Part shown: piece after piece, positions 3,225-32,217 of the stretch
Layout: every line of letters starts with the position of its first letter
How positions within the stretch are numbered: the stretch's first letter is position 1
From: Bacteroidia bacterium
GTDB lineage: Bacteria > Bacteroidota > Ignavibacteria > SZUA-365
Assembly: GCA_027493955.1 (NCBI GenBank)
Contig: JAOSJT010000001.1
Location: 2,777,131-2,841,130, forward strand
Direction: 5' to 3'
Length of the DNA: 64,000 nt
Program-made: the position numbers and the translations under genes
The notes under the pieces: model-generated
The model's database searches: none
What the model saw: the letters and a program-made list of their open reading frames with translations, nothing else
Told to the model about the DNA's origin: nothing

Positions 3225-3226
3225 TG

Positions 3227-10832: not shown

Positions 10833-11151
10833 GGGACAAATGGTCCTGTGACTGGTGATGACACTGTTGGCGGTGGAGTTTCATAGGAAACTCCGGCCTG
10901 TCTGTACTCGTGGAATTCGGATAGCATCTATCATAATTAGATTTTTTATTAAATCCAAAAAATATTTTTTCGAAGCTATCAGGAAGAGGAATGCGGCGGC
11001 TCGCACCGACTATCGGAGCGATGAATTCCCAAAGTGCTCTGCGTTTGTTTACCCCGGTTCTTCCCTGTACTGCGGTCGCTCCGCTCCGACTCTCCCTCGC
11101 GACGGCAATCGCGCAACAGCTACTCCACGCAGAAGTGGTTGCGATGGACGG
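10833..11151. other. Intergenic region with AT-rich promoter-like segment
   Basis: 319 bases without a credible gene, upstream of the TANFOR operon and downstream of the first metalloprotease. Bases 10919-10980 are strongly AT-rich against a GC-rich background and are bracketed by GATAGC and GCTATC. This is the likely promoter region for the minus-strand operon, but I find no good TTTG-N20-TAnnTTTG match and no clear terminator for the metalloprotease gene. Confidence 0.4.
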
Positions 11152-14151: not shown

Positions 14152-14309
14152 GATATGTCCCGTCAACGGCTACGACAAATGTGCTTGCATGCGATTCGCT
14201 TCGCGCTGTGCCTGTACAGAGATGTGGGAATGTACGTACTTTCGCCCTCGTGCTATAATCGCGTTTGGCCTTGCAACAGCGTGGCCTTCACAACCATTCC
14301 ATTCATCTC

Positions 14310-17303
14310 CTATCGGGCGACCATAAACATTTTCGCTCTGCGCGAAACGCGATCTGACAATTCCAGAAAGTAGGTCCCGGCACGAAGCTCCGCGACGTTG
14401 AGCTCATACCGACCATCGAATGATACCCGCCGGTGCAGTAGCTCCCTGCCCAGGAGGTCTGTAACCCGAAGGTCCCCGTTGAACACCTCGCCCAGATCAA
14501 CGGTGAGTCGGTCGCTCGCTGGAAAGGGATGCAGATGAAAATGCGCGGCGTGTGTCACGGTGGAGACATCCGTGCCTGTGTGGACAGAGATCCGATGCGG
14601 CACCAGAGCACTGGAGCATGGACCTTCCACCGATCGGGCAAACACGGTGGTATCGCATTGCAAGGAAGAAATATGCAACGTGCTTCCTGTGTCGAGTGGC
14701 GCAGTTCCATCACCCCTCGCATGCCACTCTATCACACCGCCCGGAACAGCGGCCTCGAGCATCACGTCGCTGCCGAGAAGTACAGAAGACGGACCGCTGA
14801 TGCGAGGACGGGAAGCCCGAACGTGAACTCGCAAAGGTTTCCTCGGACTCACGCAGACGCCGTCATCGACTTCCACCCAGAACGTTGCTGATTCCTCAAG
14901 CGGAGGTGTGTCGAATACCCGCCCGCTGCCTATAGGATCGCCTCCGCTCTCGTTGGTATACCAGCGAAGCACACCGGTGGTATGCACAATCATGAGTCGT
15001 GCACGCTCGCCGGAACAAACAGTCGCAGCATCGGAGGAAATGGTATGAAGTGCTGCACCGTGGTGATTCGATGCGATAAAATACAGCTTGCCTCCCAGTG
15101 TCCTGAATCCCTCCGGCCGGGACGAGGACACTGTATCGATATCCGCGTACATCCGTGTCCCGTCTTCCGAACCGTCGCTGCACCAGAGTTCAATCCCGTG
15201 GTCCCTGTCATTCGCTGCAAAGAACAGCAAGGAATCATGGACTGCGAGTTCGGTGATTCGTTGTATGAGAACAGGATCGATGCGTTTCACTAATTTCGCT
15301 CCTTTCACTCCCCTGTCGAGCAATTCCCACAGCTCAGCACCATTCCCTCCGTCAGCGAGGCAGAAAATCCTTTCTCCCAGTGCGGTAAAATGTTCCGGGA
15401 AGCTGCTCCGTCCCGGATTGATGTTCTCGATCCACTGTGTCCCCTCCGACGTGCCATCGCTCACAAAGGGCTCAAATCCTCCGGAACCGTTGTCCGCGCT
15501 CATGAAAAGCAAGCCGTTACGGCTTGTGAGCGAAGCAGGGGAGGAACTTCCCGCCCCCGGATTGATATCCGCCACTCTGTGCGTACCTTCGTGCGTGAAA
15601 TCGGTCACCCACAGCTCTGCGCCTGTGACTCCGTCATCTGCTCTGAAGTACACAAGTCCGTCGGATTGGGCAAACGAAGCCGGGTTGCTGCCATTGAGCC
15701 CCGGCCGGATATCGGCGATCATTCGCGTGCCGGATTCGCTTCCATCCGTAACCCAAAGCTCGGGACCATGCTCGAAGTCGTCCGCACGAAACACCGCTTT
15801 ACCATCAACGGCGGTAATATTAAAAGCGCTGAATATATCTGTGTAGGGAAATTGTTTCACAAGATATGTTCCGGTTGTGGTTCCGTCCGAGCGCCACAAC
15901 TCCGTCTTGTATTCACCTCCGTTGAGAAAAAAGACCACCGCGCCATCAATGGGAGTGAGCCAGAAGTTGCTGGGTCTCCAGCGCTCATTCTGTACGAAAA
16001 TTTCCGTCGTGTTCCCTGATGGCAGATCGACACGATGGAGCGAGGGGCCAAGCACTTCATCGTAGAGGAAGTAGAGCAACATGTTATTCCAGAGGAGAAC
16101 GGAGAGAAGGCTTTTTCCCACAGGGGGCGATGCGGCGAGTTGCCTTCCGCTGCCTGATCTGCCGTCGAAATACCACAGCGCACCACCGTCCGCCTGAAGA
16201 ACAATTCCCAGTGAGTCCGCAGTCAGGATTTTTATGGTGGATTGTTTCGCGGTATCGGGATCGAACACCGCGAGAGCACCCTCGGTAACAACATCAGGCA
16301 TCGATCCAACGGTGACCGTTACGCGGGCACGGCGGCTGATACAGGAATCGACAGCCTCCGCGAACCAGCTCCGGTCCTCGCTGACCGGCGGTGTGACGAA
16401 CACCCGACCGCTTCCCAGCAGTGTACCTCCTTTCGCGGCATCGAACCAGCGTACGTCCGGGGCACTCGTTGTTGCCGTCAATACCACGCTTGTGCCGACG
16501 CAGACGCTGGTATCGTGGAGTTGCGGAGGCGCGACATGACAACAATCGTATCCTGTGCTGAGCGCCACGGCGCGTGCGCGGGCAAGCTGCATCGGTGTGA
16601 GACTATCGGCGCAGTGCGACGCCGTATACGACATGACAGTGTTCGTCAAGGGCTGATATTCCATGCCGCGGAGATCACGGGCGGTACCGGTGTAGCGGCA
16701 CGCGGCATCGACTTTGCCGTTCAGATTCGGATCGGCCGGCGTGTCGCAAAATTTATCGCCCGCCGTTGTGCAATTACTGCCGTCTACGAGTTCGGTGGTT
16801 GTGCCGCTGTTCGTGGGTCCATGTGTATGCGGCAGACCGACGGTATGACCGAGCTCGTGGCTGAGGATATTTTCCAGCGTCCTGGGGCAGGCAATGTTTA
16901 TATACACTCTCCCGCCGACCTCGTACGCACATCCCGTCGAGGAGCGATACACATCGACGTTTACCGCGGGATTGTTACATTCCGGCGATGTTCCTTCGGG
17001 ATAGTACCTGGTTTCGCCGCAGCGCACGAAACGGATTCCTCCCCTGAAATAATACTCGTTAGTCGTCTTCAAAGCATCACCGATTCGCCCGTCACTGACA
17101 ACCGGCGACCCGCCCTGTGTCTGCACATGGAAGATCACCGGCACCTCCACCACGCCCGTATCTGCGAGCGCACGGAACATGGGATCGCGTTGCGCCAGCA
17201 GCGCATCGAAGCGTGCCGACCACGCGCTGTCTGTCACCGTTTCGCAGAATTGGGCATTCGCGGAAGTTGGCAGCAGAAACAGGAGGATGAGTATGTGCTT
17301 CAT
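14310..17303 (-). CDS. Pappalysin-type M43 metalloprotease paralogue with ELWxSDGT repeats and T9SS sorting domain
   Basis: About 997 residues, a tandem paralogue of the downstream gene with the same architecture: signal peptide, M43 domain with HELGHTVGLPH (His149, His153, His159) and Met-turn VMSYTA, Ig-like module (VRWFDA...WFAEAVDSC), ELWxSDGTxxGT repeats, a second Ig-like module and a sorting domain ending KMFMVAR. Catalytic residues are intact, so both copies could be active. The region around the cleavage site is identical in DNA to the other copy, while the repeat region has diverged. ATG 17303 is chosen because it starts the signal peptide and has GGTGA five bases upstream; an ATG at 17315 is the alternative. 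It lies 158 bases upstream of its paralogue's start. Confidence 0.9.
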   Translation of the reverse strand: MKHILILLFLLPTSANAQFCETVTDSAWSARFDALLAQRDPMFRALADTGVVEVPVIFHVQTQGGSPVVSDGRIGDALKTTNEYYFRGGIRFVRCGETRYYPEGTSPECNNPAVNVDVYRSSTGCAYEVGGRVYINIACPRTLENILSHELGHTVGLPHTHGPTNSGTTTELVDGSNCTTAGDKFCDTPADPNLNGKVDAACRYTGTARDLRGMEYQPLTNTVMSYTASHCADSLTPMQLARARAVALSTGYDCCHVAPPQLHDTSVCVGTSVVLTATTSAPDVRWFDAAKGGTLLGSGRVFVTPPVSEDRSWFAEAVDSCISRRARVTVTVGSMPDVVTEGALAVFDPDTAKQSTIKILTADSLGIVLQADGGALWYFDGRSGSGRQLAASPPVGKSLLSVLLWNNMLLYFLYDEVLGPSLHRVDLPSGNTTEIFVQNERWRPSNFWLTPIDGAVVFFLNGGEYKTELWRSDGTTTGTYLVKQFPYTDIFSAFNITAVDGKAVFRADDFEHGPELWVTDGSESGTRMIADIRPGLNGSNPASFAQSDGLVYFRADDGVTGAELWVTDFTHEGTHRVADINPGAGSSSPASLTSRNGLLFMSADNGSGGFEPFVSDGTSEGTQWIENINPGRSSFPEHFTALGERIFCLADGGNGAELWELLDRGVKGAKLVKRIDPVLIQRITELAVHDSLLFFAANDRDHGIELWCSDGSEDGTRMYADIDTVSSSRPEGFRTLGGKLYFIASNHHGAALHTISSDAATVCSGERARLMIVHTTGVLRWYTNESGGDPIGSGRVFDTPPLEESATFWVEVDDGVCVSPRKPLRVHVRASRPRISGPSSVLLGSDVMLEAAVPGGVIEWHARGDGTAPLDTGSTLHISSLQCDTTVFARSVEGPCSSALVPHRISVHTGTDVSTVTHAAHFHLHPFPASDRLTVDLGEVFNGDLRVTDLLGRELLHRRVSFDGRYELNVAELRAGTYFLELSDRVSRRAKMFMVAR
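17181..17261. repeat. 81-bp exact repeat, copy 2 (5' end of metalloprotease paralogue)
   Basis: Second copy of the block at 14029-14109, in the same orientation and at the same codon positions. The two flanking bases differ between copies on each side, which defines the limits. Confidence 0.9.
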
Positions 17304-17456
17304 TGCTATCACCATACGAAATATTCAGGCGACAGAAGGGCTGCAGACGATACGATCAGCGCGACCGGGGCTGCTGGGAATCAGGGGGGAGAGCGGAACC
17401 GGGGGGCCTGCGCCACCCCGGCTCGATCTCATGCGAATCGACGACAGGTTCCCTCG

Positions 17457-18370: not shown

Positions 18371-18401
18371 AAAAAAACACCCACGTCTCGCGTGGGTGTT
18401 T
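18371..18401 (-). terminator. Intrinsic terminator of cassette 1
   Basis: A perfect 11-bp stem (18375-18385 with 18391-18401, loop TCTCG) followed on the minus strand by a run of U residues. It lies about 45 bases downstream of the stop of the mini-protein gene at 18447. Confidence 0.85.
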
Positions 18402-18446
18402 GTCTCTCTCTTTCAATCTAATCGCGTACTTCCGGGATCCTCCTTT

Positions 18447-18773
18447 TCAGGATTTACTGGTGGTGAGGATGAGCGTGCGTTGTTGAACTCCGTGGCGTGT
18501 TTCGAGTCTGGCATAACAGCCGCCTGCCGGGAACGCATCGCCGTACAATTTCAATTCATGGTAGCCGGAATTCAGCAGGGCCCTGTCGTAGAGCGTGTGA
18601 ATCACGCGGCCGTATGAATCGTAGATGACGAGTGTGATCTCCTGTTGTTCTTCCAATGTGAATGAGACAGTGGCGCTCGGATTGAGCGGATAGCTTTGTT
18701 GCGAAAACGTAAAGGGTATTTCGCGTCCCGCTGCCCCGTTCCTCGGCTTCCGGAGTATTTGATTGTCGAACAT
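18447..18773 (-). CDS. Stand-alone T9SS sorting-domain-like mini-protein, cassette 1
   Basis: 108 residues. After about 25 residues without any signal peptide, the rest resembles a T9SS type A / FlgD-like C-terminal Ig fold: YPLNPSATVSFTL corresponds to the usual YPNPFNPSTTISFSL, followed by TLVIYDSYGRVIHTLY, SGYHELKLYG and PAGGCYARLETR. The start at 18773 has an AGGAG site six bases upstream. A close paralogue lies at 21444-21773 with the same context, downstream of a related secreted protein. Because no export signal is seen, it may act in the cytoplasm or periplasm, for example as a decoy or partner of sorting domains; this is speculation. Confidence 0.75.
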   Translation of the reverse strand: MFDNQILRKPRNGAAGREIPFTFSQQSYPLNPSATVSFTLEEQQEITLVIYDSYGRVIHTLYDRALLNSGYHELKLYGDAFPAGGCYARLETRHGVQQRTLILTTSKS

Positions 18774-18924
18774 GTGTCGCTCCTCATGGGTGGACCTTCT
18801 TCGGGTTGGCCCCGGATGCGGTGTGGGCAATGCCGCTACTCATCGTTCCCGCATCCGGACTGAGTGTCACTGTTTCCGTCAGTTCGTTCAGTATCCGGGA
18901 TGTCTGCATCCGCGGGCCACACCC

Positions 18925-18947
18925 GAAGAAAGCTTCTCTCTTTCTTC
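18925..18947 (-). other. Hairpin after stop of cassette 1 cargo gene
   Basis: An 8-bp stem (GAAGAAAG/CTTTCTTC, 7-base loop) starts five bases past the cargo gene stop and has no U tract. The same area forms a larger imperfect inverted repeat, 18797-18819 with 18906-18930. It separates the cargo and mini-protein genes, so it may set their expression ratio by attenuation or mRNA stabilisation. Confidence 0.5.
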
Positions 18948-18952
18948 TTGCC

Positions 18953-20896
18953 CTATTTGTTCAGCACCACGCGCTGATAGCGTGTGACGCCCGCCGCGTT
19001 GAGCACGACGATATATGAACCGCTCGGCAAAGCCGATGCGCGGAAGGCCGCGGTATGCACGCCCGCTTCGAGCGCGGCGTTGTCGAGTATGACGGCCACT
19101 TCACGTCCGTAAATATCGAAGACCTTGATCTTCACCGGAGCGGCCGTTCCGAGCGAGAAGCTGACGGTCGTGCTCGGATTGAAGGGATTCGGATAGGCCT
19201 CGTGCAGTTCCACTCCCGTCGGCAGCGCACCCAGAGTCACAAACACGATATTGGAGTATTCCGTGGTCCCGTCGCGGTCTATCTGCCGCAGACGGTAGGC
19301 CAGCCTCGGCGCGCGTTTCGTGGCCGGGTCGAGCAAATCCGTGTAGGTGTAGGATTTCGGGCTGTAGGAGTTGCCCGCGCCGTTGACGAAGTCTATTTCT
19401 TCCCAGATCTCGCCGTCGCGCGAGCGCTCGATGGCGAAGCCGTAGTTGTTGAGCTCCGTCGCCGTCTGCCAGCTCAGCTCCACATTGTCGCGAATATAGC
19501 GTGCGGAGAAGGAGGTGAGTTCGACGGGGACTTGATTGCTGCCCTCGCCGATGGTGAGATCTCCGAAGTAGAAGGTTGGACACATTACAACATAGAGTCG
19601 TCCATTGATGTTATGTCCGCCAAAGATACTCCCATACGTGTACCACGAGGTATCAACTCCAGTGGGAAGCGGATCTGTGATATCCTCGAGATTCTCGGAC
19701 CAAATAGCAGCGTACGCTCCGCTAGGTGTGGAGACGTCACTCGTGTTGAATTCTGCTGCATAACAGATGTCGTTTGTGGGTGGTCCCAAGTACGTCGGGA
19801 AATACGGATTGTTCACTTGCGCAAATCCTACTGGTTGCACAACCCAGTATTTCGCCACGATTTTGTTACCAACCGCCATATTCTTAGGATGTATCTTTTT
19901 TACATATCGAACAGATACACCTCGAAACGGCTTTGTTGCTGAGGGGGTGAACGTCGTTTCATATGCCACATTGATATCCACTCCCATAGACATAGCAGCT
20001 TGCTGGGAAACGTCCTTTCCCGTCTCGAAGATGAAGTATTCGACACTTTCATCCCAAACCTCATACCCATACATGGGATCCGATGGGTCGGTGACCTCCC
20101 TCATCCAATGGCGGGCACTTTTCACCAGTCGGCCAATAGTTGTGTTGGGGAGATGCTCATCCGTGAAGCCAAAGAACGTCTCACCAACGCTGGGAATACT
20201 CAGTTGGATATTCTCAGCCTCTTTTCCTAACCATACGCTGTGCTGGCCAATATTTACACGGGCACCCAAAATCACATCACCTTCAAAGCGTGCATCGCTC
20301 CTAAACTGTCCGGTAAACCGCTCTAATCGCGTGCTCACATTCGGAGTACGATCTAAGGTTCCAATGTAGCTCGTCAGAAGATTATTCATTGAGATTGAAC
20401 CATAGGCACGTATAAGGACGTCTCTCCGGTCGGTATTTGGGTTGGCCGAGTAATACTCGATCTTTGAATTGGTGAGATTTAACTCGGCAGACGGCACTGT
20501 ACTGCTACCAAGCTGTATGATGAATCCATTCGCGGTTGTTCCGTCGTACCCGAGATTCAACGTCGCGTCTGTAAGGGAAAATATGCCGGTAACTGTTAGT
20601 GTAAAGTCGGAAATAAAGGTAACGTTCCCGCTTATACTAAGGTTGGCAATGGTCGCATTCGCATCAAAGGTAACCGTATAGCCGGTGGGAATAACAGCAT
20701 AATCGGTAGCCGTTGGTACTATCCCAGTTCCAGTGCCTCCATCCCAATTTGCGGCTGTTGACCATCGGGTGTCAGTGCCGCCACCACCATCCCACGTCCG
20801 TGTATTCTGCGCCAGCACATTATCCGTTCCAAAAAGGAACACCATCGCTAACAGCAGGGGGAAGGCGATGCTCCGAATAGTCGTTTTTGCTCTCAT
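18953..20896 (-). CDS. T9SS cargo protein, cassette 1 (PVELTSF family)
   Basis: 647 residues: signal peptide (LLLAMVFLFGTDNVLAQ), an N-terminal region beginning with a WSTAANWDGG segment typical of Bacteroidota beta-helix-like surface proteins, and a central domain with conserved VGNKIVAKYWVVQPVGF and RLYVVMCPTFYFGDLTIGEGS segments. A fibronectin-like module starting PVELTSF and NNYGFAIERS follows, and then a type A sorting domain (YPNPFNPSTTVSFSL ... VVLNK). ATG 20896 has GAGGAG eight bases upstream. It is paralogous over its full length to the protein at 21861-23708. Predicted to be exported by T9SS and attached to the cell surface; the molecular function is unknown. Confidence 0.9.
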   Translation of the reverse strand: MRAKTTIRSIAFPLLLAMVFLFGTDNVLAQNTRTWDGGGGTDTRWSTAANWDGGTGTGIVPTATDYAVIPTGYTVTFDANATIANLSISGNVTFISDFTLTVTGIFSLTDATLNLGYDGTTANGFIIQLGSSTVPSAELNLTNSKIEYYSANPNTDRRDVLIRAYGSISMNNLLTSYIGTLDRTPNVSTRLERFTGQFRSDARFEGDVILGARVNIGQHSVWLGKEAENIQLSIPSVGETFFGFTDEHLPNTTIGRLVKSARHWMREVTDPSDPMYGYEVWDESVEYFIFETGKDVSQQAAMSMGVDINVAYETTFTPSATKPFRGVSVRYVKKIHPKNMAVGNKIVAKYWVVQPVGFAQVNNPYFPTYLGPPTNDICYAAEFNTSDVSTPSGAYAAIWSENLEDITDPLPTGVDTSWYTYGSIFGGHNINGRLYVVMCPTFYFGDLTIGEGSNQVPVELTSFSARYIRDNVELSWQTATELNNYGFAIERSRDGEIWEEIDFVNGAGNSYSPKSYTYTDLLDPATKRAPRLAYRLRQIDRDGTTEYSNIVFVTLGALPTGVELHEAYPNPFNPSTTVSFSLGTAAPVKIKVFDIYGREVAVILDNAALEAGVHTAAFRASALPSGSYIVVLNAAGVTRYQRVVLNK

Positions 20897-20953
20897 GAGT
20901 ATCTCTCCTCAAGAAGTTCTGTGATGAGTAACGGTATAAACCGGAAGAGGAGG

Positions 20954-20970
20954 AGCGAAAAGCGTGCCAG
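20954..20970 (-). promoter_or_regulatory. Sigma-54-type promoter of cassette 1
   Basis: The minus strand reads CTGGCACGCTTTTCGCT. This matches the sigma-54 consensus YTGGCACG-N4-TTGCW in all eight positions of the -24 element and four of five in the -12 element, with the obligatory 10-base spacing between GG and GC. It ends 57 bases before the start codon at 20896. Cassette 2 has the same element at nearly the same distance. Confidence 0.7.
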
Positions 20971-21030
20971 ATATTCAGGGTGGGTTATCTTCTGTCCCTG
21001 TTGAAGAGAAATGCTCGCGCTGCGCACGAG

Positions 21031-21202
21031 GTATGCAACAGAATGACAGAATCATCGGTCAATCAGCTAAAGTAACGCTCGAAGTCGGGCGCGACCCCGG
21101 ACGAGGCGGCTACTGAGCGACTGCGACGAGTTTTTCAGCGCAATTGCTATTCAATAGCCGTGAGTGATAGGCAATCGTGTGAATAGGGAATGATTTGCAT
21201 AG
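21031..21202 (-). promoter_or_regulatory. CTATGCAA-type candidate activator sites, cassette 1
   Basis: A 7-of-8 match at 21031-21038 (GTATGCAA, followed by C) and an exact inverted copy at 21195-21202 (TTGCATAG) lie about 65 and 230 bases upstream of the sigma-54-like promoter. The same 8-mer occurs three times upstream of cassette 2. Distances suit an enhancer-binding activator. Confidence 0.4.
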
Positions 21203-21362
21203 GCGCTTCGCTGACCGCGCGTACTGTACCGATTTCGGGCGAAGGGACCTTATGTTTTCAAGAGGATTTCCCGTTTTACGTTTCACTACAAAGAACAATC
21301 GACAGAATGCCTCTCGAAAACCGTATACTTTGACGTTCCTCCCGATGAAAATCCCCAAAAAT

Positions 21363-21397
21363 AAAGAACTCCCTCCTGCTTCCTGCCGGGAGGGAGT
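21363..21397 (-). terminator. Intrinsic terminator of cassette 2
   Basis: A 9-bp stem (21368-21376 with 21389-21397) and a 12-base loop, followed on the minus strand by TCTTTATTTTT. On its upstream side it shares the sequence TGTCTCTCTCTTT with the terminator of cassette 1, showing that the duplication included this region. Confidence 0.78.
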
Positions 21398-21443
21398 CTG
21401 TCTCTCTCTTTAATCTTATCGTTCCATCTGTACCTGTCGTTGT

Positions 21444-21773
21444 TCAGGGGTGTAGTGTTGCATTCAAAATCAAATTTCGCTGCTGTACGCCATATCGGGT
21501 TTGGAGACGTGCGTAGCAACTGCCGGCAGGGAACAGGTCCCCGTACAACTGCAATTCGTGATAGCCCGGCTTCATCATGACGTCTTCATACAGCGTGTGA
21601 ATGACTCTTCCATACGAGTCGTAAATTTTTAAGGTAATTTCCTGCGGTTCTTCGAGTGTGAAGGTGACTGTGGCGCTTGGATTCAACGGCCAGGCCCTTC
21701 GGGAAAATGTGAAGGGTATTTCGGCACCGCGAAGCTTCTGACCTATGTGACCTTCCAGGGGATCTGTAAACAT
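21444..21773 (-). CDS. Stand-alone T9SS sorting-domain-like mini-protein, cassette 2
   Basis: 109 residues, paralogue of the protein at 18447-18773. No signal peptide. Core motifs are EIPFTFS, WPLNPSATVTFTLEEPQEI, IYDSYGRVIHTLY, GYHELQLYG and PAGSCYARLQTRYGVQQR. The cysteine in CYARL is conserved in both copies. ATG 21773 has AAGGAA eight bases upstream; a longer frame to 21857 would run into the intergenic hairpin and is rejected. Two paralogues at identical positions behind paralogous cargo genes argue strongly that this is a real gene rather than a fragment of a decayed sorting domain. Confidence 0.75.
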   Translation of the reverse strand: MFTDPLEGHIGQKLRGAEIPFTFSRRAWPLNPSATVTFTLEEPQEITLKIYDSYGRVIHTLYEDVMMKPGYHELQLYGDLFPAGSCYARLQTRYGVQQRNLILNATLHP

Positions 21774-21814
21774 AACACTGTTTCCTTGCTTCCGTTTCCT
21801 CGTGGGGAGATATT

Positions 21815-21846
21815 CCGGCCGGGGCGCCGCTACACGCCCCGGCCGG
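21815..21846 (-). other. GC-rich hairpin after stop of cassette 2 cargo gene
   Basis: A perfect 12-bp stem (21815-21826 with 21835-21846) with an 8-base loop, 14 bases past the cargo gene stop and without a U tract. It occupies the same position as the hairpin of cassette 1 although the sequences differ, which suggests the structure is what is kept. Confidence 0.65.
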
Positions 21847-21860
21847 AGCGCATTCACATC

Positions 21861-23708
21861 TTACTTGTTGAGGACCAGACGCTGCTGTTTCAGCGCACCG
21901 CCGGCGTTCATTACCACGAGGTAGGAACCGCTGGGCAGATTGTCACCGCGGAAGGCCACCGTGTGGAAGCCGGCCTCGGTCTGCGCGTTCTCCATCAGCG
22001 TCACCACCTCCTGGCCAAAGATGTTGAACACCTTCATGGTGACGGGCTGCGTCTCGCGCAGCGAAAAGCTGATCGTAGTGCTCGGATTGAAAGGATTCGG
22101 ATACGCGTCGTACAGTTCCACGCCGGACGGCATCACACCGGTTTTCACAAACACGATATCGGAGTAGTCCGTGGTGCCGTCGCGGTCGATCTGGCGCAGA
22201 CGGTAGCCGATTTGCGGCACGCGGCGCAGACGATCATCGAGCAAGTCGGTGTAGGAATAGTTGCGCGGACTGTAGGAATTGCCTGCGCCCTGCACGAAGT
22301 CAATTTCTTCCCACACGCGGCCGTCCAGCGAGCGCTCGATGGCGAAGCCGTAGTTGTTCAGCTCCGTCGCGGTCTGCCAGTTGAGTTCCACGTTGTTCCG
22401 CACATAGCGCGCGGCAAAGGAAGTGAGCTCGACGGGAATCTGATTGCTGCCCTCTCCGATGGTGATGTCACCAAAATAGTAGGTGGGACACATGACCACA
22501 TAGAGTCTGCCGCCGATGTTCTGACCGCCGAACTGGCTGCCGTAGCTGTACCAGGCGCCGCCGTTATTATCCTCGTAATTATCCGACCAGATGGCGGCAT
22601 AGGCCTCGGCGGGAGCGGAAACGTCGCTGGTATTGAACTCCACGGCGTAGCAAATGCTGTTCGCCGGAGGGAAGGGCGCAAAAAACGGGTTGCTCTCCTG
22701 CAGGAAACCGACCGGCTGGACGACCCAGTACTTCGCGACGACCTTGTTGCCTGTGGCCTGATTCTCCGGATGGATCTGTCGCACGTAGCGCACGGAAACA
22801 CCGCGGAAGGGTTCAGTGGAAGTGGCGGACCAGCTGTTGTCAAGCTGTGCGACATTGATGTCCACACCCATGGACATATTGCCCTGGCTGACATCGAAGC
22901 CCGTCTCGATGATGAAATAACTCACATTGGGATCCCAGTTGCCGTTTCCGTCCTGCCAATACTTCGCGCTCTTGATAATACGGCCGATGGGGGATCCTGA
23001 CGTGTGTACATCGGTAAAGGTGAAGCAGTCCTGATTGGCGCCCGTGGTGGTGATACGGGAATTGCCCGCGTTCTTGCCAAGCCACACGTTATAGGCGCCG
23101 AGATTCACGCGCGCATTCAGGACAACATTGCCCTCGAAGCGAACATCGCTCGTGAATTGTCCGCTGGAGCGTTCCAGACGACTGAGAATATTGGGACTCG
23201 CATCAAGAGCTCCTATGTGGCACACGCGCAAATCGCCCATATTCACGGAACCGAAAAGACGAATGTTGACATGCTTGCTCGGAGAACCGTTGGGGACGAT
23301 TCTGGAACCAGAAACACCGAGCAGACTCAGCGCTGCGTTTTGCGCGATAACGAGGGGAAAACCGGCGCGGGTCGGGGTGATATAGCCTAATTGCAACAGA
23401 GCGTCTGTGAGAGTCATGGTGGAAGTCACCGTCACGGAGGTGTCGCTCAACAGGGTCACTGTTGCTCCGGTGATGCTGAAGCTCAGGACAGTCACAGCGG
23501 CGGTGACATTGACCGAGGCGTTGCTGCTAAAGAAAGCATCATCGCTGCTGCCGGGCACACCGTTGGGACTCCAGTTGGCGGGGGTGTTCCAGTTACTGTT
23601 GGCCCCGGCTCCTGTCCATGTATAGATCGTCGCCTGAGCCGGTACGGCGCTCAGCAGACAAAGCAGGGACAGTAATCCTGTTGCCAGTTGTATCCTCATT
23701 TTCGACAT
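21861..23708 (-). CDS. T9SS cargo protein, cassette 2 (PVELTSF family)
   Basis: 615 residues, full-length paralogue of the protein at 18953-20896: signal peptide (LLSLLCLLSAVPAQA), a WNTPANWSPNGVPG segment, a central domain with VGVDIN-like and AKYWVVQPVGF motifs, YYFGDITIGEGS, a fibronectin-like module beginning PVELTSF, and a type A sorting domain ending LVLNK. The ATG at 23708 has GAGGAG five bases upstream. It should be secreted through T9SS and displayed on the surface. The central domain is shared by both paralogues but not by any family I can name. Confidence 0.9.
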   Translation of the reverse strand: MSKMRIQLATGLLSLLCLLSAVPAQATIYTWTGAGANSNWNTPANWSPNGVPGSSDDAFFSSNASVNVTAAVTVLSFSITGATVTLLSDTSVTVTSTMTLTDALLQLGYITPTRAGFPLVIAQNAALSLLGVSGSRIVPNGSPSKHVNIRLFGSVNMGDLRVCHIGALDASPNILSRLERSSGQFTSDVRFEGNVVLNARVNLGAYNVWLGKNAGNSRITTTGANQDCFTFTDVHTSGSPIGRIIKSAKYWQDGNGNWDPNVSYFIIETGFDVSQGNMSMGVDINVAQLDNSWSATSTEPFRGVSVRYVRQIHPENQATGNKVVAKYWVVQPVGFLQESNPFFAPFPPANSICYAVEFNTSDVSAPAEAYAAIWSDNYEDNNGGAWYSYGSQFGGQNIGGRLYVVMCPTYYFGDITIGEGSNQIPVELTSFAARYVRNNVELNWQTATELNNYGFAIERSLDGRVWEEIDFVQGAGNSYSPRNYSYTDLLDDRLRRVPQIGYRLRQIDRDGTTDYSDIVFVKTGVMPSGVELYDAYPNPFNPSTTISFSLRETQPVTMKVFNIFGQEVVTLMENAQTEAGFHTVAFRGDNLPSGSYLVVMNAGGALKQQRLVLNK

Positions 23709-23763: not shown

Positions 23764-23780
23764 TACACATACCGTGCCAA
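23764..23780 (-). promoter_or_regulatory. Sigma-54-like promoter of cassette 2
   Basis: The minus strand reads TTGGCACGGTATGTGTA: a perfect -24 element (TTGGCACG) and a weak -12 element (GTGTA in place of TTGCW). It ends 55 bases before the start codon, against 57 in cassette 1. The position supports function; the weak -12 element lowers certainty. Confidence 0.5.
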
Positions 23781-23940: not shown

Positions 23941-23980
23941 CTATGCAAAACGATGCGCAGCTATGCAACGGGTTGCATAG
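23941..23980 (-). promoter_or_regulatory. Cluster of CTATGCAA sites upstream of cassette 2
   Basis: Three exact copies of CTATGCAA in 40 bases: direct at 23941-23948 and 23961-23968, inverted at 23973-23980. The last two form the palindrome ATGCAACGGGTTGCAT (23963-23978). A related palindrome GCAACGCGTTGC lies at 23930-23941. The cluster is 160-200 bases upstream of the sigma-54-like promoter, a usual distance for NtrC-type enhancer sites. Confidence 0.45.
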
Positions 23981-24754: not shown

Positions 24755-27700
24755 TCACCCTGCAGGGAAGGTCAGCAGAAACACCGCGCCCTCCTCGCCG
24801 GCAACCTGTTCGGCCTGAAGTTCGATAGAGCCGTCATGATCGTCCACGATAAAATAGCACAGCGTCAGGCCAAGACCGATGCCCTTGTCGCTTTTGGAAG
24901 CCGTGAAGAAGGGGTCGAAAATGCTGTCCGCGATTTCCTGCGGTATGCCCGGCCCGGTATCGCTGACGCGAATGCGCACCTCGTCTCCACTGCGTCCGCC
25001 TCGCACGTAAATGTTGCCGGGACCGGTAAGCGCGTTGGCCGCGTTCGTAAAGAGATTGTAGAACAATTGCACCAGCATTTCCCGGTTCCCGAAAATCACT
25101 GCGGCGCCGTGCGGGAGATCAATGCTGACCGTCACATTCGCGGCGAGAGGATGCGCCGAAAGCATAGAACGCGCCTCCGCGACCGTATCGGCCAAATCAA
25201 TCTGACCCTTCATCAACTGCCCCTTGGGCTTGCCGATGAGCAGCAGATTCTCGATGATCTTGTTCGCCTTCTCCACTCCCGAATAAATGACTTCGCCATA
25301 CTTGCGAAGCTGCTCCTCCGGGAGATTGTGCTTGGTCAAAAGCAGCTGAGCGGCCGAAGACGCATAGCCGAGGGGATTGCGCAGTTCGTGCGCTATGCCT
25401 TCAGAGAGAATGCCCAGTGAGGCCAGTTTTTGCGACTGCAGCAGTTCGCGTTCCAGCTTTTTCCGCTCCGTCAGATCAATCCCGACGCCGACATAGCCGT
25501 GCACGCGTCCGTCTATCTCAATCACATTCCAGCGGGATTCGACCGGTAGAATGACGCCATCCTTACGCGTGCGCTCGGTCTCCCCTTGCCATGCACCCGT
25601 ACGCCGCAGCGTGGGCATAATCTTTGCTCCGAATTCCTTGCCGAAGGGCGGCAAGTCATCCACCACGCGACCGAGCACTTCCTCGGATTTCCAGCCGTAC
25701 ATTTGCTCCGCAAAAGTATTCCAGTAGATCACACGACCGTTGACATCCACGGCGATGACGGAATTACGGACGATGCGCAACAGGGAGGCCTGAAAATGAA
25801 TGTACTCCTCGCTCTCCTTGCGGGAGGTGATGTCGTTGAAAAAGCTGAGCGTGGCGGGGCGTCCCTCCCAGGCGATGACGACATCGCGCACTTCCATCCA
25901 TTTTATCGTTCCGTTGACGTCGAACATACGCACGTTGTAGCCCTCGGGTGCGGCCTCACCGCGCAGTCGGGTTTCGTACTGCGAGCGCAGGGTGTCGTGA
26001 TCGTCGGGATGGATGAATTCCAGCAGAGGAAGATTCTCGAGCGTCGCCGCATCGAGACCGGTGAGTTCGAGCACTTCATCGTTGAAAAACTTGACCAGCA
26101 AATCCTGGACGACCAGAATACCTTCGCCGGCGTTTTCGAGCACGTTGCGGTATTTCGCCTCGCTCTCGCGCAAGGCGCGCTCTGCCTTCACGCGACGCGA
26201 GATATCGCGCACCGTGGCTACCAGCAGCGGTGTATCGCCGGTGGTGAACTCGCGGATGAGCATTTCCACCGGGAACAGACTTCCATCGTGTCCGACAAAG
26301 CTCGTCTCGAGCACACCCACCGTGAGCTGACCGCTGCGGACATCCTGAATCACCGTGAGCACTCTCGTATGTTCGTCCTCCGGGACGATATCCGTCAGAC
26401 GCAGCGTCAGCAACTCCTCACGGCTGTACCCCAGAGCCGATGCCGCACTGTCGTTGATATCAACATTCGTAAGCGTCGCCGGATCGATGATGTACAGGTT
26501 GTCCGCGGCACTGTCCAGCGCGAAGCGGAAACGACGCAGACGCTCGTTTGCGCGTTCCAGATCGAGCGTTCGGGCTTCGACGAGCTCTTCGAGATGGTTA
26601 CGGTGCCGGTCCAGTTCACGCTGCGTGCGCACACGCTCCGAAATGTCCACCGCCACACCGATCACCTGCTGTACTTTTCCGTGCGCGTCGAATATCGGAG
26701 AGTACCAGGTCTGGAACTGCTTGTCCTCGACTTCCGCGATGGACGCGAGGTGTTCGCCACGCATTACCTGTTCGATATTGCTGAGTATGACGGGATTGCC
26801 GCCATACACCTCGGTGACGCTCCGACCGACGACCTGCCCCGGCTGCAGCCCCAGCGCGTCCAGGCCGCGTCCCTCCGACAGGGTGAAAGCGCCGTTCGCG
26901 TCCAGCGAAAACAGAATGACAGGGAGATTGGAAATCACCGTACGAAGGCGTTTCTCACTGTCGACGAGCGCGAACTCGGCCATTTTTCTTGCGGTGATGT
27001 CGCGCCCTACGCCGACAAGGGCGACAATCTCTCCGTCCTCGTCGAACACGGCAGACTCCGACCAGGCCAGCCAACGCCACCCCTCCACGGTCAAGGCGCG
27101 CTGCTCCACGTACGCGGTGTGCGGCGGACTGAGAATGACCTTCATGGCATCGAGCGTGGCGGCGCGATCATCCTCATGCACCATGGGGATGAAAGTATTG
27201 GCCAGCAATTCCTCTTCCGTTTTCCCGAATGTCCGGCAGTAGGACGGGCTGACGAAGAGAAAACGCCCGTCGAGGTCCATTTTAACGACAAGATCCGTCT
27301 GGTTCTCCACAAGGAGACGATACTTCTCTTCGCTCTCCTGCAATGCGAGCTGGGCGAGCTTGCGATTGTGAATATCGCGCGTGTTTCCGTGGACGGATAC
27401 CAGATTCCCGAGGCGATCGAATATCGGTATGGCCACGACTTCCACCCACAGCGGATCGAGCATGCGGCGCGCGAGTTTCAGCTCGAGGCGCAGACTGCGG
27501 TCCATCGTGCCACCCTGCCGAAGCCTATCGACATGTTCGGAAAACGCATTCTGCAGTCGCTCGAAGTGTTCCTCGACGAACACCCCCTTCAGTCCCATGG
27601 CGAACATATCTTCAGGCAGGAAACCGCTGATGTACTCGACGCTGGGACTGACAAACGTGAGGTTCCAGGCAGCGTCGCTTGTCCAGATGATGTCCGATGA

Positions 27701-29764
27701 ATTTTCCGCGAGGAGGCGGAATTTTTTTTCACTGTCCTCAATGGCGATTTCCGCGTACTTCCGCTCCGTCAGGTCAAGTATGGTGCCGGCAACCCTTCGC
27801 GGAGCGCCGACGGCGTCTCTGAGCACGACTTTCCCGCGTTCGAGTATCCATTTCCATTCGCCGTTTTTGCAGACGATCCAGGTCTCCGCCTGATAGAACG
27901 GCGCCTGTCCCTCGAGATACCGGTCCATTTCCTCGCGTAGTCGTCGGACGTCGTCCTGCGGCAGAATCTCACGCCGCATCGCGCTGTACGAGGGGAGATC
28001 GTCCTGCTCGTATCCCAGGAGGCTGCGTGCCCGGTCATTCAGGATAACTGTGTCGGATTCAACATCCCACTCCCAGGCGCCCAGGTCGCCTCCCCAGAGT
28101 GCGAGGTCGAGCAATTCCCGGGATCCGCGCATTTCGGCTTCTATCTGGCGCTGCTCCGTCACGTCCTCACCGGAACAAAGTACGCCGCTCACGAGTCCGC
28201 TCGCATCATGGATCGGTGAATTGTGCCAGCGGATGATGCGTTGATCGCCGCGACGGGTGAGCACCGCGTTTTCGTGGATTTCCGCGGTCTGGTACTCGCC
28301 GTGCAGGAGAGTATGCAAGGCGGCTCGCGTGTCCTCCCGGATCTCCGGCGGGAGGCAGAGATCGAACCAATCGCGGCCGAGAAGCTGCTGCTCGGTATAC
28401 CCCAGAAGATCACAACCCTTTTTATTGATCAGGGTGATGCTTCCGGTGGCATCGAGTGAGAGAAAGATGACCTCGGCGATGTCGAGATATTGCTGAATCT
28501 CTTTGCGCGCGGAACGGAAAAGATCCGCCATGCGGTGCTGTTCTGTGACGTCGCTGAGCACACCCGCGATACGGCCATGCTCTGCGAGCGGAAGATGGCG
28601 GCCGCAGGAAATATGAACGGAGCGGACCTCGCCGTCGCGGTTGGTCATGAAAAATTCGCATGGCTCGGCGGCGGTTTTCGGCAGATGGTGCAGCGCTTCG
28701 ACGAAATCCCGGCGTTGCTCTTCGACGACGAATTCCGACAACTGCCTGCCGATAAGGAATTCCGGCTCATACCCGAGGATTTTGGAAATGACAGGCGAGA
28801 TGAATGTGATGCGGCCGTTGGTGTCGATTTCGTACACGGCTTCGTTGATGCCGTCGAGTATCGAACTCAGGCGCAGTTCCACTTCTCCCAAACTGTGCTC
28901 GGCTCGTCGTCGTGAACTGATATCCACGAGATAGGATTGCAATTGCACGCTACCGGTCTCATCGAACGACACACGCGTAACGTCGCTGACCCACACGTCC
29001 TCGCCCCGTGCATCCATCAACCGGTATTCATGCTCCATGATGACAGAGTCGGCAGCGAGGCGTTCAAGAATTTTCGCTTGCAGCGCCTCCGTGTCGGCGG
29101 GGTGGACAATGCTTTCGAAGGTCCGGGCACCCGTGATAAAATCCTCCGGCTGGTAGCCGTACCGCATGACGTTCGGCGAAATATAGTCAACGATGCCGGG
29201 CGCTTCCGCCGAACGTTTGACGACTACCACGGGACCCGAGACGAACAGATCACGTTCCCGCTGTATCTCCTCTCTGGCCGCAGTCAATTCACGATTGCGC
29301 TGCTCGAGATCCGTGTTCACTCTGTCCAATTCCATTTTGAGCCGGTGCCGCTCGATGGCATACAAAATGCTGCGGACGAGATGCTCACGGGAACCGATAT
29401 CCTTCACGACATAGTCTTGTGCGCCGGCACGCACCGCATCAACGGCCAAGCCGGTGTCGCGGACGCCGGAATGGATGATGATGGGGACAGAAGGCGCCGC
29501 TGCCGCGATGGCATGGAAGGTATCGAGACCACTACTGTCCCGAATATTCAGATCGAGCAAAACACAGTCCCAGTGCCCGCTCCCAAGCTGGAGCATTGCA
29601 TCGGCAATACTGTCCACATGGACTACGGTCCACTCATGCAATACATCCGCGCCGAGTGTCGCTTTCACGAGCGCGGCGTGGTCGGAATCATCTTCGACAT
29701 GAAGAAGGGAAATTCCCGCGACGTCGTCCATAGGGTGTACGATTGATTGAGTGGAAAAACTCAC
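24755..29764 (-). CDS. Hybrid sensor histidine kinase with N-terminal receiver and ten PAS domains
   Basis: 1669 residues. It opens with a receiver domain (acidic pair near Glu24/Asp25/Asp26, phospho-acceptor Asp71 in CVLLDLN, Lys in YVVKDIG) and a short coiled coil. Then come ten consecutive PAS/PAC modules to about residue 1440, each ending in a DIT- or DLTERK-like linker. The kinase core has an H box GIAHELRNPLG (His1459) and a HATPase domain with DTGPGIP and GIGLGLTL. There is no transmembrane segment, so it should be cytoplasmic and sense soluble or redox cues. GTG 29764 is used; ATG 29731 is the alternative and neither has a clear ribosome binding site. It starts 33 bases after the response regulator gene, its probable partner. 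Confidence 0.92.
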   Translation of the reverse strand: MSFSTQSIVHPMDDVAGISLLHVEDDSDHAALVKATLGADVLHEWTVVHVDSIADAMLQLGSGHWDCVLLDLNIRDSSGLDTFHAIAAAAPSVPIIIHSGVRDTGLAVDAVRAGAQDYVVKDIGSREHLVRSILYAIERHRLKMELDRVNTDLEQRNRELTAAREEIQRERDLFVSGPVVVVKRSAEAPGIVDYISPNVMRYGYQPEDFITGARTFESIVHPADTEALQAKILERLAADSVIMEHEYRLMDARGEDVWVSDVTRVSFDETGSVQLQSYLVDISSRRRAEHSLGEVELRLSSILDGINEAVYEIDTNGRITFISPVISKILGYEPEFLIGRQLSEFVVEEQRRDFVEALHHLPKTAAEPCEFFMTNRDGEVRSVHISCGRHLPLAEHGRIAGVLSDVTEQHRMADLFRSARKEIQQYLDIAEVIFLSLDATGSITLINKKGCDLLGYTEQQLLGRDWFDLCLPPEIREDTRAALHTLLHGEYQTAEIHENAVLTRRGDQRIIRWHNSPIHDASGLVSGVLCSGEDVTEQRQIEAEMRGSRELLDLALWGGDLGAWEWDVESDTVILNDRARSLLGYEQDDLPSYSAMRREILPQDDVRRLREEMDRYLEGQAPFYQAETWIVCKNGEWKWILERGKVVLRDAVGAPRRVAGTILDLTERKYAEIAIEDSEKKFRLLAENSSDIIWTSDAAWNLTFVSPSVEYISGFLPEDMFAMGLKGVFVEEHFERLQNAFSEHVDRLRQGGTMDRSLRLELKLARRMLDPLWVEVVAIPIFDRLGNLVSVHGNTRDIHNRKLAQLALQESEEKYRLLVENQTDLVVKMDLDGRFLFVSPSYCRTFGKTEEELLANTFIPMVHEDDRAATLDAMKVILSPPHTAYVEQRALTVEGWRWLAWSESAVFDEDGEIVALVGVGRDITARKMAEFALVDSEKRLRTVISNLPVILFSLDANGAFTLSEGRGLDALGLQPGQVVGRSVTEVYGGNPVILSNIEQVMRGEHLASIAEVEDKQFQTWYSPIFDAHGKVQQVIGVAVDISERVRTQRELDRHRNHLEELVEARTLDLERANERLRRFRFALDSAADNLYIIDPATLTNVDINDSAASALGYSREELLTLRLTDIVPEDEHTRVLTVIQDVRSGQLTVGVLETSFVGHDGSLFPVEMLIREFTTGDTPLLVATVRDISRRVKAERALRESEAKYRNVLENAGEGILVVQDLLVKFFNDEVLELTGLDAATLENLPLLEFIHPDDHDTLRSQYETRLRGEAAPEGYNVRMFDVNGTIKWMEVRDVVIAWEGRPATLSFFNDITSRKESEEYIHFQASLLRIVRNSVIAVDVNGRVIYWNTFAEQMYGWKSEEVLGRVVDDLPPFGKEFGAKIMPTLRRTGAWQGETERTRKDGVILPVESRWNVIEIDGRVHGYVGVGIDLTERKKLERELLQSQKLASLGILSEGIAHELRNPLGYASSAAQLLLTKHNLPEEQLRKYGEVIYSGVEKANKIIENLLLIGKPKGQLMKGQIDLADTVAEARSMLSAHPLAANVTVSIDLPHGAAVIFGNREMLVQLFYNLFTNAANALTGPGNIYVRGGRSGDEVRIRVSDTGPGIPQEIADSIFDPFFTASKSDKGIGLGLTLCYFIVDDHDGSIELQAEQVAGEEGAVFLLTFPAG

Positions 29765-29797: not shown

Positions 29798-31198
29798 TCA
29801 GCTGTTGGGATTCTGAAGATCATATTCCGCAATCTTCGAAAGCAAGGTGTTGTATGCAATCTGCAGAATCCTCGCGGCCTTGGCCTTGTTCCAACGCGTG
29901 GATTTCAGCGTTTCGTGAATGATCTGTCTTTCGATCTGGGCAATGTGCTTTTTGACGTGGTCCTTCAACGGAGCGCCATTTCCAAGATCCAGTCCCTCCA
30001 GATGTCCTATGCTTTCGCCGCCGTGCATATCCATAAACTCGAGATGCTCGACGTCAATAACATCGCCTGCCTGCAGTACGGCGCTGCGAATGGTTGAGCG
30101 CAATTGCCGCACGTTCCCGGGCCATTCGTACATCATGAGCATATCGAGCGCGGCTGCGGTGCAACCGGACACCTTCTTGTCCAGCTCCAGATTTGTCTGA
30201 TGGATGAACTTATCAATGAGGAAAGGGATGTCCCCGCGGCGCTCTCTGAGAGCCGGTACGTGTATGGAAAATTCGCGCAGACGGTAAAAAAGGTCGGCCC
30301 GGAATGTTTTTCCCTCGATCATCGCATTGAAGTCCGTGTTGCTCGCGGCAATGACGCGTACGTCGACGTTGATGGGTTTCGAGCCTCCGACACGAAAAAT
30401 ACTTCGATCCTGCAAGGCCCGCAGAAGCTTCGCCTGTGAGGACCAGGACATGTTCGGAACTTCGTCGAGAAAGATGGTTCCGCCGTTCGCAAGTTCGAAC
30501 TTCCCCTTTTTTTGCGAACGCGCATCGGTAAAGGCGCCTTCTTCGTGACCGAACAATTCGCTCTCCAGCAGTGAGTCCGGAATGGCCCCGCAATCGAGTG
30601 GAATGAAGGGTTTGTCCGCCCTGCTGCTCATGGAATGAATTGCGCGGGCTATGAGCTCTTTACCCGATCCGGTTTCGCCTGTGATCAGCACATCGAAGTT
30701 GCTTTTCGCGACCCGCCGGGTACGCGCGGCCAGTTCGACAACGACCTCGCTGGTCCCCATATCAAAAAGAATCGGATCACGCACGTCAATTGGGGTGCTG
30801 CGTTTCTCCAGCACTGTTTTGCGCATCTCGCGATCAGTGACAGCCCTGTCCACGACTTTGATCAGCTCGTCGTTGCGAAAGGGCTTGGCTATATAGTCAA
30901 ACGCGCCGCTTCGCATGGCTTCAACGGCACCCGCAACTCCCGCCATGGCAGTCATGAGTATCACCGGGATCCCGTCGTCAATACTTTTAATACGCCGCAG
31001 CACTTCGAGACCACTGAGACCGGGCATGATTATATCCATGAGCAGCACACCCGGCAGGCGTTCGCTGAGGAGTTTCAGCGCCTCCTCCCCCGTCGTTGCT
31101 GTTCGCACGGTATATCCGGCGTCTTCGAAAACACCGGAAAGCACGAGACCCATCATTTCCTCATCATCAACAATCAGAATATCCTTGTTCTCACTCAT
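29798..31198 (-). CDS. NtrC-family sigma-54-dependent response regulator
   Basis: 466 residues from the ATG at 31198: receiver domain (Asp11/12, phospho-acceptor Asp55, Lys105 in YIAKPF), AAA+ domain (Walker A GETGSGK at 174-180, Walker B TIFLDEV at 241-247, R-finger region FRADLFYRL), and a Fis-type helix-turn-helix at the C-terminus (WNKAKAARILQIAYNTLL). The sigma-54 contact loop reads GAFTDA (221-226) rather than the usual GAFTGA. It should be phosphorylated by a kinase, probably the ten-PAS kinase encoded next, and activate sigma-54 promoters. The frame extends to 31426, but the receiver starts at MSENKDILIV, so the longer form is rejected. The divergent SDR gene begins 221 bases away. 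Confidence 0.92.
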   Translation of the reverse strand: MSENKDILIVDDEEMMGLVLSGVFEDAGYTVRTATTGEEALKLLSERLPGVLLMDIIMPGLSGLEVLRRIKSIDDGIPVILMTAMAGVAGAVEAMRSGAFDYIAKPFRNDELIKVVDRAVTDREMRKTVLEKRSTPIDVRDPILFDMGTSEVVVELAARTRRVAKSNFDVLITGETGSGKELIARAIHSMSSRADKPFIPLDCGAIPDSLLESELFGHEEGAFTDARSQKKGKFELANGGTIFLDEVPNMSWSSQAKLLRALQDRSIFRVGGSKPINVDVRVIAASNTDFNAMIEGKTFRADLFYRLREFSIHVPALRERRGDIPFLIDKFIHQTNLELDKKVSGCTAAALDMLMMYEWPGNVRQLRSTIRSAVLQAGDVIDVEHLEFMDMHGGESIGHLEGLDLGNGAPLKDHVKKHIAQIERQIIHETLKSTRWNKAKAARILQIAYNTLLSKIAEYDLQNPNS

Positions 31199-31419
31199 AT
31201 CGGTGCGCAGAAAAAAAGTGTGGAACAGCTCGGGAGAAATTCCGGAATGACTTAAGCATAGGATTTTATACATTTCAGCGATGAATCGCAAGAGGTGAGC
31301 GAAACAATCGTACGAGAATACGATTGGAACCGTCCGCACCACTGTCGCGAAGGACGGAGGGAACCGCGCCTCGCGGGGCCCACGAACGGAACGAGCCACC
31401 ACCATTTCTGGAGAAACAA

Positions 31420-32217
31420 ATGACACGTACTCCGCGTGCCCTTGCGCTCATAACCGGCGCGGGATCAGGAATCGGGAAAGCCGCGGCGCTGCGTTTCGCG
31501 CGCGACGGGTATGATTGCCTCCTGCTCGGGAGAACGCTCCGTTCTCTCGAAGCCGTTATGGAGGAAATCACCACACATGCCGGAGGGGAGCATCGCATCC
31601 TCGTCGCCGACGTCGCGGGCGGTGATGCGTACCTTGCTGCGCTCGGTGAGATGATCAGCACGTATCCGCCGGATGTCGCCATTGTCAACGCGGGAATAGG
31701 GCTGTACGGTCCGGTGGCGGCGACGGAGTGGAAGGACATCGAATCCATCCTACACACCAATATCAGTGGAGCCATCGCGACCGTGCACGCAGTACTCCCA
31801 TCCATGCTGCGACGCGGGAACGGAAGCATCGTTCTCGTTTCCTCCGTGCTCGGGAAGCGTGCGCTGGCCTTCAACGCAGCATACAGCGCGAGCAAAGCCG
31901 CCTTGCATGGTTTTGCGGATGCGCTGCGCCTGGAAGTGCGGCATCGCGGTGTACACGTCGGCGTGGTATGCCCCGCAAGAACCGACACTCCGTTTTTCCG
32001 TTCCATGACTTACGCCGTTCCGCAGACGCGCAGACGCGCCGTACCCACCAGTCCCCCGGAAGTCGCTGCGGAAGCCATTCACCGCTGTGTGCGTCAGCGG
32101 CGGCGTGAAATCGTCGTCTCCGCCGGCGGAAAATTGTATGTGCTCGCCGGAGTGCATTTTCCGCGACTGATGGATTTCGTACTTTCCAGAATGGTCCCAA
32201 CTCCCGAGGAAGCATGA
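31420..32217 (+). CDS. SDR-family NAD(P)-dependent oxidoreductase
   Basis: 265 residues. A classical short-chain dehydrogenase with cofactor motif TGAGSGIG (12-19), NAG at 90-92, catalytic Ser141/142 and the YSASK pair Tyr155/Lys159. It should reduce or oxidise a hydroxyl/keto group using NAD(P)H in the cytoplasm; the substrate cannot be told. The start at 31420 is backed by GGAG six bases upstream; the frame runs open from 31324, but that part has no family similarity. The stop overlaps the next start in ATGA, so translation is probably coupled to the HAD phosphatase. Confidence 0.93.
   Translation: MTRTPRALALITGAGSGIGKAAALRFARDGYDCLLLGRTLRSLEAVMEEITTHAGGEHRILVADVAGGDAYLAALGEMISTYPPDVAIVNAGIGLYGPVAATEWKDIESILHTNISGAIATVHAVLPSMLRRGNGSIVLVSSVLGKRALAFNAAYSASKAALHGFADALRLEVRHRGVHVGVVCPARTDTPFFRSMTYAVPQTRRRAVPTSPPEVAAEAIHRCVRQRRREIVVSAGGKLYVLAGVHFPRLMDFVLSRMVPTPEEA

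Follow-up and report, generated by a model that had tools for sequence, protein, structure and literature searches.

T9SS sorting domains are known as tags with a function in the periplasm and at the outer membrane. In the effector–chaperone pairs of type III secretion, a small leaderless protein is encoded beside the secreted protein, one per cargo. NtrC-type sigma-54 operons have a regulator of receiver-AAA+-Fis architecture, a PAS kinase, an upstream dyad and a −24/−12 promoter. In P. gingivalis the T9SS signal is within the last 22 residues, and loss of the last few strands cargo in the periplasm; the sorting domains of RgpB dimerise through β-strand swapping (PMC4804311). PorA (PGN_0123), from the same organism, has a CTD and affects signalling through PorXY-SigP (PMC7712824).

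The stretch of DNA analysed here (the window, 64 kb of a 5.24-Mb genome assembled as one contig) carries two cassettes, in each of which a gene for a small leaderless protein, the mini-protein, sits downstream of a signal-peptide-bearing T9SS cargo gene. The leaderless, cargo-adjacent, one-per-cargo layout is that of type III chaperones, but T9SS cargo goes through Sec first and the mini-protein is homologous to part of its cargo; it matches no chaperone family. What PorA has in common with the mini-protein is its small size, its CTD and its link to a two-component system, one by which the expression of T9SS genes is controlled (PMC7712824). However, PorA is a cell surface protein with a signal peptide, a real CTD and, in addition, a FimH-like domain, whereas the mini-protein is a CTD-like domain only, and the PorA pathway is PorXY-SigP, not sigma-54. 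PorA is the nearest precedent, if a loose one in view of its export and its additional domain. All four elements of NtrC-type sigma-54 operons have counterparts at the cassettes. Here, though, the genes apparently controlled are those of T9SS cargo, and a second regulator, RR2, lacks the GAFTGA loop. No published case of NtrC-type sigma-54 control of T9SS cargo was found in the literature searched.

The cassettes

An earlier note, made from the letters of the window, had proposed a duplicated cargo/mini-protein pair. All four ORFs are present where it placed them, on the minus strand and with the sizes it gave (Table 1), and both cargos match Por_Secre_tail above the curated cut-off. The two mini-proteins are paralogous as claimed (64% identity), with the cysteine of CYARL conserved. 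That they are without signal peptide is borne out well beyond the window: a hydrophobic N-terminal segment is absent from all 13 mini-proteins now known, whose 15-residue Kyte-Doolittle maximum within the first 40 residues is 0.07–0.63 as against 1.96–2.68 for ten cargos. Two further features fared less evenly. The good ribosome binding sites attributed to both mini-protein genes hold for the first, which has AGGAG six bases 5′ of its ATG; the second has the weaker GGAAAC. An intrinsic terminator ending each unit is found by both approaches used for unit 1, while for unit 2 a stem with a T-rich tail is seen by folding but not by the consensus scan.

The window also encodes, at 11152–17315, a tandem pair of secreted paralogues, each about 1000 aa long, that have a HELGH motif like that of zinc proteases and ends resembling sorting domains.

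Table 1. Location of the features discussed. Positions are those of the window except for RR2, where the locus is named.
Feature	Position	Strand	Description
Cargo 1	18953..20896	−	647 aa; signal peptide and type A sorting domain ending RVVLNK
Mini-protein 1	18447..18773	−	108 aa; leaderless, T9SS-CTD-like; core common to 12 other copies
Cargo 2	21861..23708	−	615 aa; signal peptide and type A sorting domain ending RLVLNK
Mini-protein 2	21444..21773	−	109 aa; leaderless, T9SS-CTD-like
Intrinsic terminator 3′ of mini-protein 1	18375..18401	−	fold and consensus scan
Terminator-like hairpin 3′ of mini-protein 2	about 21357..21397	−	strong stem with T-rich tail; fold; missed by consensus scan
Hairpin between cargo 2 and mini-protein 2	21814..21847	−	perfect, GC-rich, CCGGCCGGGGCG..CGCCCCGGCCGG, without T-run; fold
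Hairpin between cargo 1 and mini-protein 1	18794..18933	−	long, imperfect; fold
Predicted sigma-54 promoter, cassette 1	20954..20969	−	TGGCACGCTTTTCGCT; ends 57 nt 5′ of cargo ATG; only 1-mismatch match in window
Predicted sigma-54 promoter, cassette 2	23764..23779	−	TGGCACGGTATGTGTA; two mismatches; ends 55 nt 5′ of cargo ATG
Predicted enhancer dyad	23962..23979	.	TATGCAACGGGTTGCATA; about 200 bp upstream of cassette 2 promoter; one of the genome's two sites with at most 1 mismatch
HK1	24755..29764	−	1669 aa; receiver, many PAS domains, HisKA, HATPase; transmembrane segment not apparent
RR1	29798..31426	−	NtrC-type: receiver, activator domain for sigma-54 (loop GAFTDA) and Fis-type HTH
RR2	L050 5303-6823		
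RR2	L052 6409-7962		
RR2	L053 9754-11136		
RR2	L054 5842-7209		
RR2	L055 11395-12942		
RR2	L056 1-1104		

Relation of the mini-protein to sorting domains

By sequence comparison the mini-protein is homologous to type A sorting domains (PF18962, TIGR04183). The best match of mini-protein 2 in a search of the genome, other mini-proteins apart, is the C-terminal domain of its own cargo (33% identity, E 7e-13), and the top non-mini matches of a mini-protein profile are mostly the sorting domains of partner cargos, followed by many further CTD matches. The homology spans about 80 residues. It upholds the earlier description of the mini-protein as sorting-domain-like, but plain Pfam/NCBIfam scans do not reach the cut-off: the best score is 14.1 bits against the required 23 (P0002), with weak matches only for the other copies.

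A β-sandwich prediction and the NPSxT and PxG-Y motifs are shared with the type A domain; unlike it the mini-protein stands alone without signal peptide and has a conserved CYARL containing its single cysteine. The joint alignment of ten mini-proteins with ten cargo CTDs shows where else the two part. The YPNPFNPST of the cargos is shortened in the mini-proteins to YPLNPSAT (YPLNP in place of YPNPFNP), LPSGxY is replaced by FPxGGCY, and the terminal VLNK, with its lysine, is swapped for an extra tail that is variable. Neither the YPNPF motif nor a C-terminal last strand of KLVLxK type is present in any mini-protein aligned. As the residues that form the terminal signal are replaced, the mini-protein is unlikely to be a substrate of T9SS.

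Its predicted structure is a seven-stranded β sandwich, with a mean pLDDT of 73 from aligned input (67 from single sequence). No solved structure related by sequence was found, and a fold search gave generic β-sandwich matches only (best Foldseek E 1.6e-3; VIA Z no higher than 9.2, many unrelated folds being tied), so nothing about function is deduced from it. One of the top fold matches, though not a significant one, is 3isy, an intracellular proteinase inhibitor. The mini-proteins are small and look soluble.

Distribution

The 13 mini-proteins come from seven genomes, which belong to three genera of one family of ‘Ignavibacteria’ MAGs, and always occupy the same position. Besides the two in the window, the same genome has a third cargo–mini-protein pair of the same kind 0.47 Mb away (locus L050), and six other genomes of the family hold the remaining ten. 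[The seven genomes are mostly MAGs, and the named records are labelled Bacteroidetes or uncultured Ignavibacteria.] A weak additional match at 197.5 kb of the genome has a short open frame, with neither a mini-like ORF nor a PNPF motif. In searches that scored the best 13–15 candidates per genome, a depth at which remote relatives could escape, no mini-protein was found beyond the seven genomes among 341 of the class, nor outside the window's own genome among 395 of the phylum. The conserved pairing with PVELTSF-type cargo genes that the earlier note would take as support for a system is seen within one family; in these searches none was found outside it. Within the family, three members (G001, G004 and G010) lack both the mini-protein and, at the cut-off used, the kinase HK1. 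In two others (G008 and G009) RR1 and HK1 are present, and the absence of the mini-protein is probably an assembly gap since their contigs stop within or ahead of the cargo or cassette.

Predicted sigma-54 promoters and enhancer dyads, and the two-component island

The strongest clue to function comes from features that the earlier note did not have, namely the predicted sigma-54 promoters and enhancer dyads together with the two-component genes that flank the cassettes. Every cargo start with a readable upstream region is preceded, at about 54–62 nt, by a match to the −24/−12 consensus, and the cargo 1 site is the best such match in the window. No sigma-70-like site was found at the cargo starts. 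[Matches to the sigma-54 promoter pattern over the whole genome are no commoner than in the control.] About 200–225 bp upstream of the promoter is a dyad, the best form of which is CTATGCAAY..RTTGCATAG. With at most one mismatch allowed it occurs at two sites in the 5.24-Mb genome, both of them upstream of cassettes, as against none for the reversed control. It is exact or near-exact in six units and degenerate in both units of G007, in copy a of G005 and in unit 1 of the window, the last having scattered half-sites only. One copy of RpoN is encoded in the genome, as is the T9SS translocon protein SprA. Judged from these sites, the best explanation of the cassette is a sigma-54, enhancer-dependent operon.

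G005 has in addition, at positions 1804–15680 of locus L092 (contig C132), a second T9SS cargo-like cluster with perfect or near-perfect sigma-54 sites, near-dyads and another long kinase, and without mini-proteins.

The order RR1-HK1-cargo-mini-RR2-HK2 is kept across the three genera, and the island continues with mrp, nifU-like and NAD kinase genes. It is most complete in G005; HK1, the cassettes and RR2 are in the same order in G006 and G007, for G003 the order was joined across two contigs, and only part of it is visible in G011 and G002. The window's own genome has the island in two parts: the window contains RR1-HK1 with two cassettes, and the third cassette, with RR2-HK2-mrp, is at 2.33 Mb. 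[Upstream of that third cassette, at 10534–12939 of L050, is a lipoprotein-like TPR-CHAT protein.] The kinases and regulators all appear soluble and so share the likely compartment of the mini-protein. RR2 is also NtrC-type and its gene is directly downstream of the last mini-protein gene, but the GAFTGA loop is lost in all six sequences available. Without this contact loop RR2 probably cannot activate sigma-54, and it may antagonise RR1; from its sequence, it may be an anti-activator beside the intact activator.

The gap between cargo and mini-protein

On folding, a GC-rich and stable hairpin forms in nearly every cargo–mini-protein gap. A T-run comes after it in G003, G006 and G011, an attenuator-like arrangement. 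Among the gaps at L051–L056, those of genera g3 and g4 have a GUGCUC...GAGCAC stem across or after the cargo stop, and beyond it a GC hairpin that is perfectly paired but varies in sequence. The gap element matched no Rfam family. These hairpins, some with T-runs, suggest that more cargo than mini-protein is made from one transcript, and the stem is possibly an mRNA stabiliser or an attenuator that sets the cargo to mini-protein ratio.

Selection and a unit without its cargo

An 87-residue core is common to all 13 mini-proteins, which have a conserved QEISLKIY/YHELKLYGE/CYARL face. Alignments of these 87 codons give dN/dS of 0.045–0.08 for the four pairs with unsaturated synonymous sites, and on this measure the mini-protein is under strong purifying selection. 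Among the ten complete cargo–mini-protein pairs, mean identity falls from 71% for the mini-protein, through 62% for the cargo sorting domain, to 39% for the cargo body. The mini-protein is the more conserved in 45 of 45 comparisons with the body and in 38 of 45 with the sorting domain. That it is no decayed tail but is kept by selection, as the earlier note argued from the two window copies, agrees with these ratios and with 13 intact copies in the same place in seven genomes.

In the second unit of G005 (copy b) the dyad, a sigma-54 site reading TGGCGCGCTTTTTGCT, the hairpin between the two cistrons and the mini-protein are all retained, but the cargo is cut to about the last 40 codons. A complete cargo still adjoins this cargo-less unit. 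The mini-protein frame there, which has a stop ahead of it, spans only 97 codons and leaves MEIPF as the necessary start, in keeping with the view that the mini-protein is a stand-alone product and not merely the C-terminal part of a longer protein. With the cargo nearly lost and the promoter and mini-protein intact, the mini-protein would seem to be useful without a neighbouring cargo, though such a unit is known from this single MAG, where assembly error is possible in principle.

What the mini-protein may do

The earlier note named chaperone, decoy and regulator for sorting domains as candidate roles. Our tentative choice, the likeliest single reading of the genes and sites described though well short of a probable one, is that the mini-protein is a cytosolic mimic of the sorting domain that reports on, or tunes, cargo production within a dedicated sigma-54 two-component circuit. 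The operon would be enhancer-dependent, with the outer-surface T9SS cargo first and then the small leaderless paralogue of its sorting domain, and would be switched by the dedicated island, with RR1-HK1 upstream and RR2-HK2 downstream. RR1 would bind the enhancer dyad. The mini-protein, presumably cytosolic, would accumulate with the cargo from what is probably one transcript. By conjecture, it might then bind a soluble partner from the island (RR2 or a kinase) or the cargo sorting domain, and, once bound, exert feedback on operon expression, whose direction is likewise a guess. In favour of this reading are the predicted sigma-54 sites at the readable cargo starts, the presence of RpoN, the restriction of the near-exact dyad to cassettes, the conserved order of the island, the joint absence of HK1 and mini-protein from G001, G004 and G010, the apparent solubility of the kinases and regulators, the retention of the mini-protein in G005 copy b and its conservation relative to the cargo. 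Two findings go against this reading. The mini-less cluster of G005 has sigma-54 sites, and sigma-54 control of cargos thus does not need a mini-protein; and one mini-protein per cargo is equally what a dedicated cargo partner would give.

Such a partner is the substance of the next most plausible, if rather unlikely, explanation, that the mini-protein is a dedicated cytosolic chaperone or cap. By β-strand swapping or donation, for example, it would bind the sorting domain of new cargo and stop it folding or pairing early, before Sec export. The strand-swapped dimerisation of RgpB sorting domains (PMC4804311) counts for this, as do the pairing of one mini-protein with each cargo on a likely common transcript and the closeness of mini-protein 2 to its own cargo's sorting domain. 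Mini-protein divergence also tracks that of the cargo CTD (r 0.56) better than that of the cargo body (r 0.28), in comparisons whose pairs are not independent. However, other cargos with such a sorting domain (the genome has more than 100 CTD matches) have no mini-protein, the mini-protein is kept where the cargo is lost in G005, and the gap hairpins suggest less mini-protein than cargo. The regulatory mimic is preferred to the chaperone, by a small margin, because the mini-protein outlives its cargo, is better conserved than it and is likely to occur in the same compartment as four signalling proteins that appear soluble.

It is improbable that the role is cytosolic but unrelated to secretion, an Ig-like domain having been borrowed from the cargo gene and reused, for instance as a scaffold or inhibitor that works inside the cell and responds to the same inducing condition. 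Loss of the secretion motifs, the plain β-sandwich fold and the presence of 3isy among its non-significant fold matches would fit, but in the genomes searched the mini-protein is always linked to the cargo island and never alone. Slightly less probable again is exit from the cell by a signal-peptide-free route, after which the mini-protein would join its cargo on the outside. That it is probably co-expressed with a surface protein and has the single conserved cysteine of CYARL is in favour of this, but a leader is missing from all 13 copies, and the last-strand export motif and the terminal lysine are also gone.

The remaining two explanations have next to no claim. A decayed cargo tail or non-coding remnant would suit a small CTD-derived ORF, but is ruled out by the dN/dS values, provided that the codon alignment is right, and 13 intact copies with their own starts and a conservation exceeding that of the cargo also oppose it. 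A cargo lengthened into a double sorting domain, through readthrough of its stop codon or through frameshifting, could be imagined for unit 2, where the frame is open from the cargo stop into the mini-protein, but a shared fusion of this kind is excluded by the differing frames of the mini-protein relative to the cargo stop among units, and upstream of the mini-protein in G005 copy b no intact cargo is left.

Whether it regulates its cargo or escorts it, we lean, by a little, towards seeing in this leaderless copy of a sorting domain, set in a devoted sigma-54 two-component island, the first case of a T9SS cargo with a dedicated partner in the cytosol. A conserved leaderless copy of the tag beside the cargo in a dedicated sigma-54 circuit implies that the tag is read, bound or imitated inside the cell. 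If true, this would give a handle on how surface-protein production is matched to export, a poorly understood part of T9SS biology.
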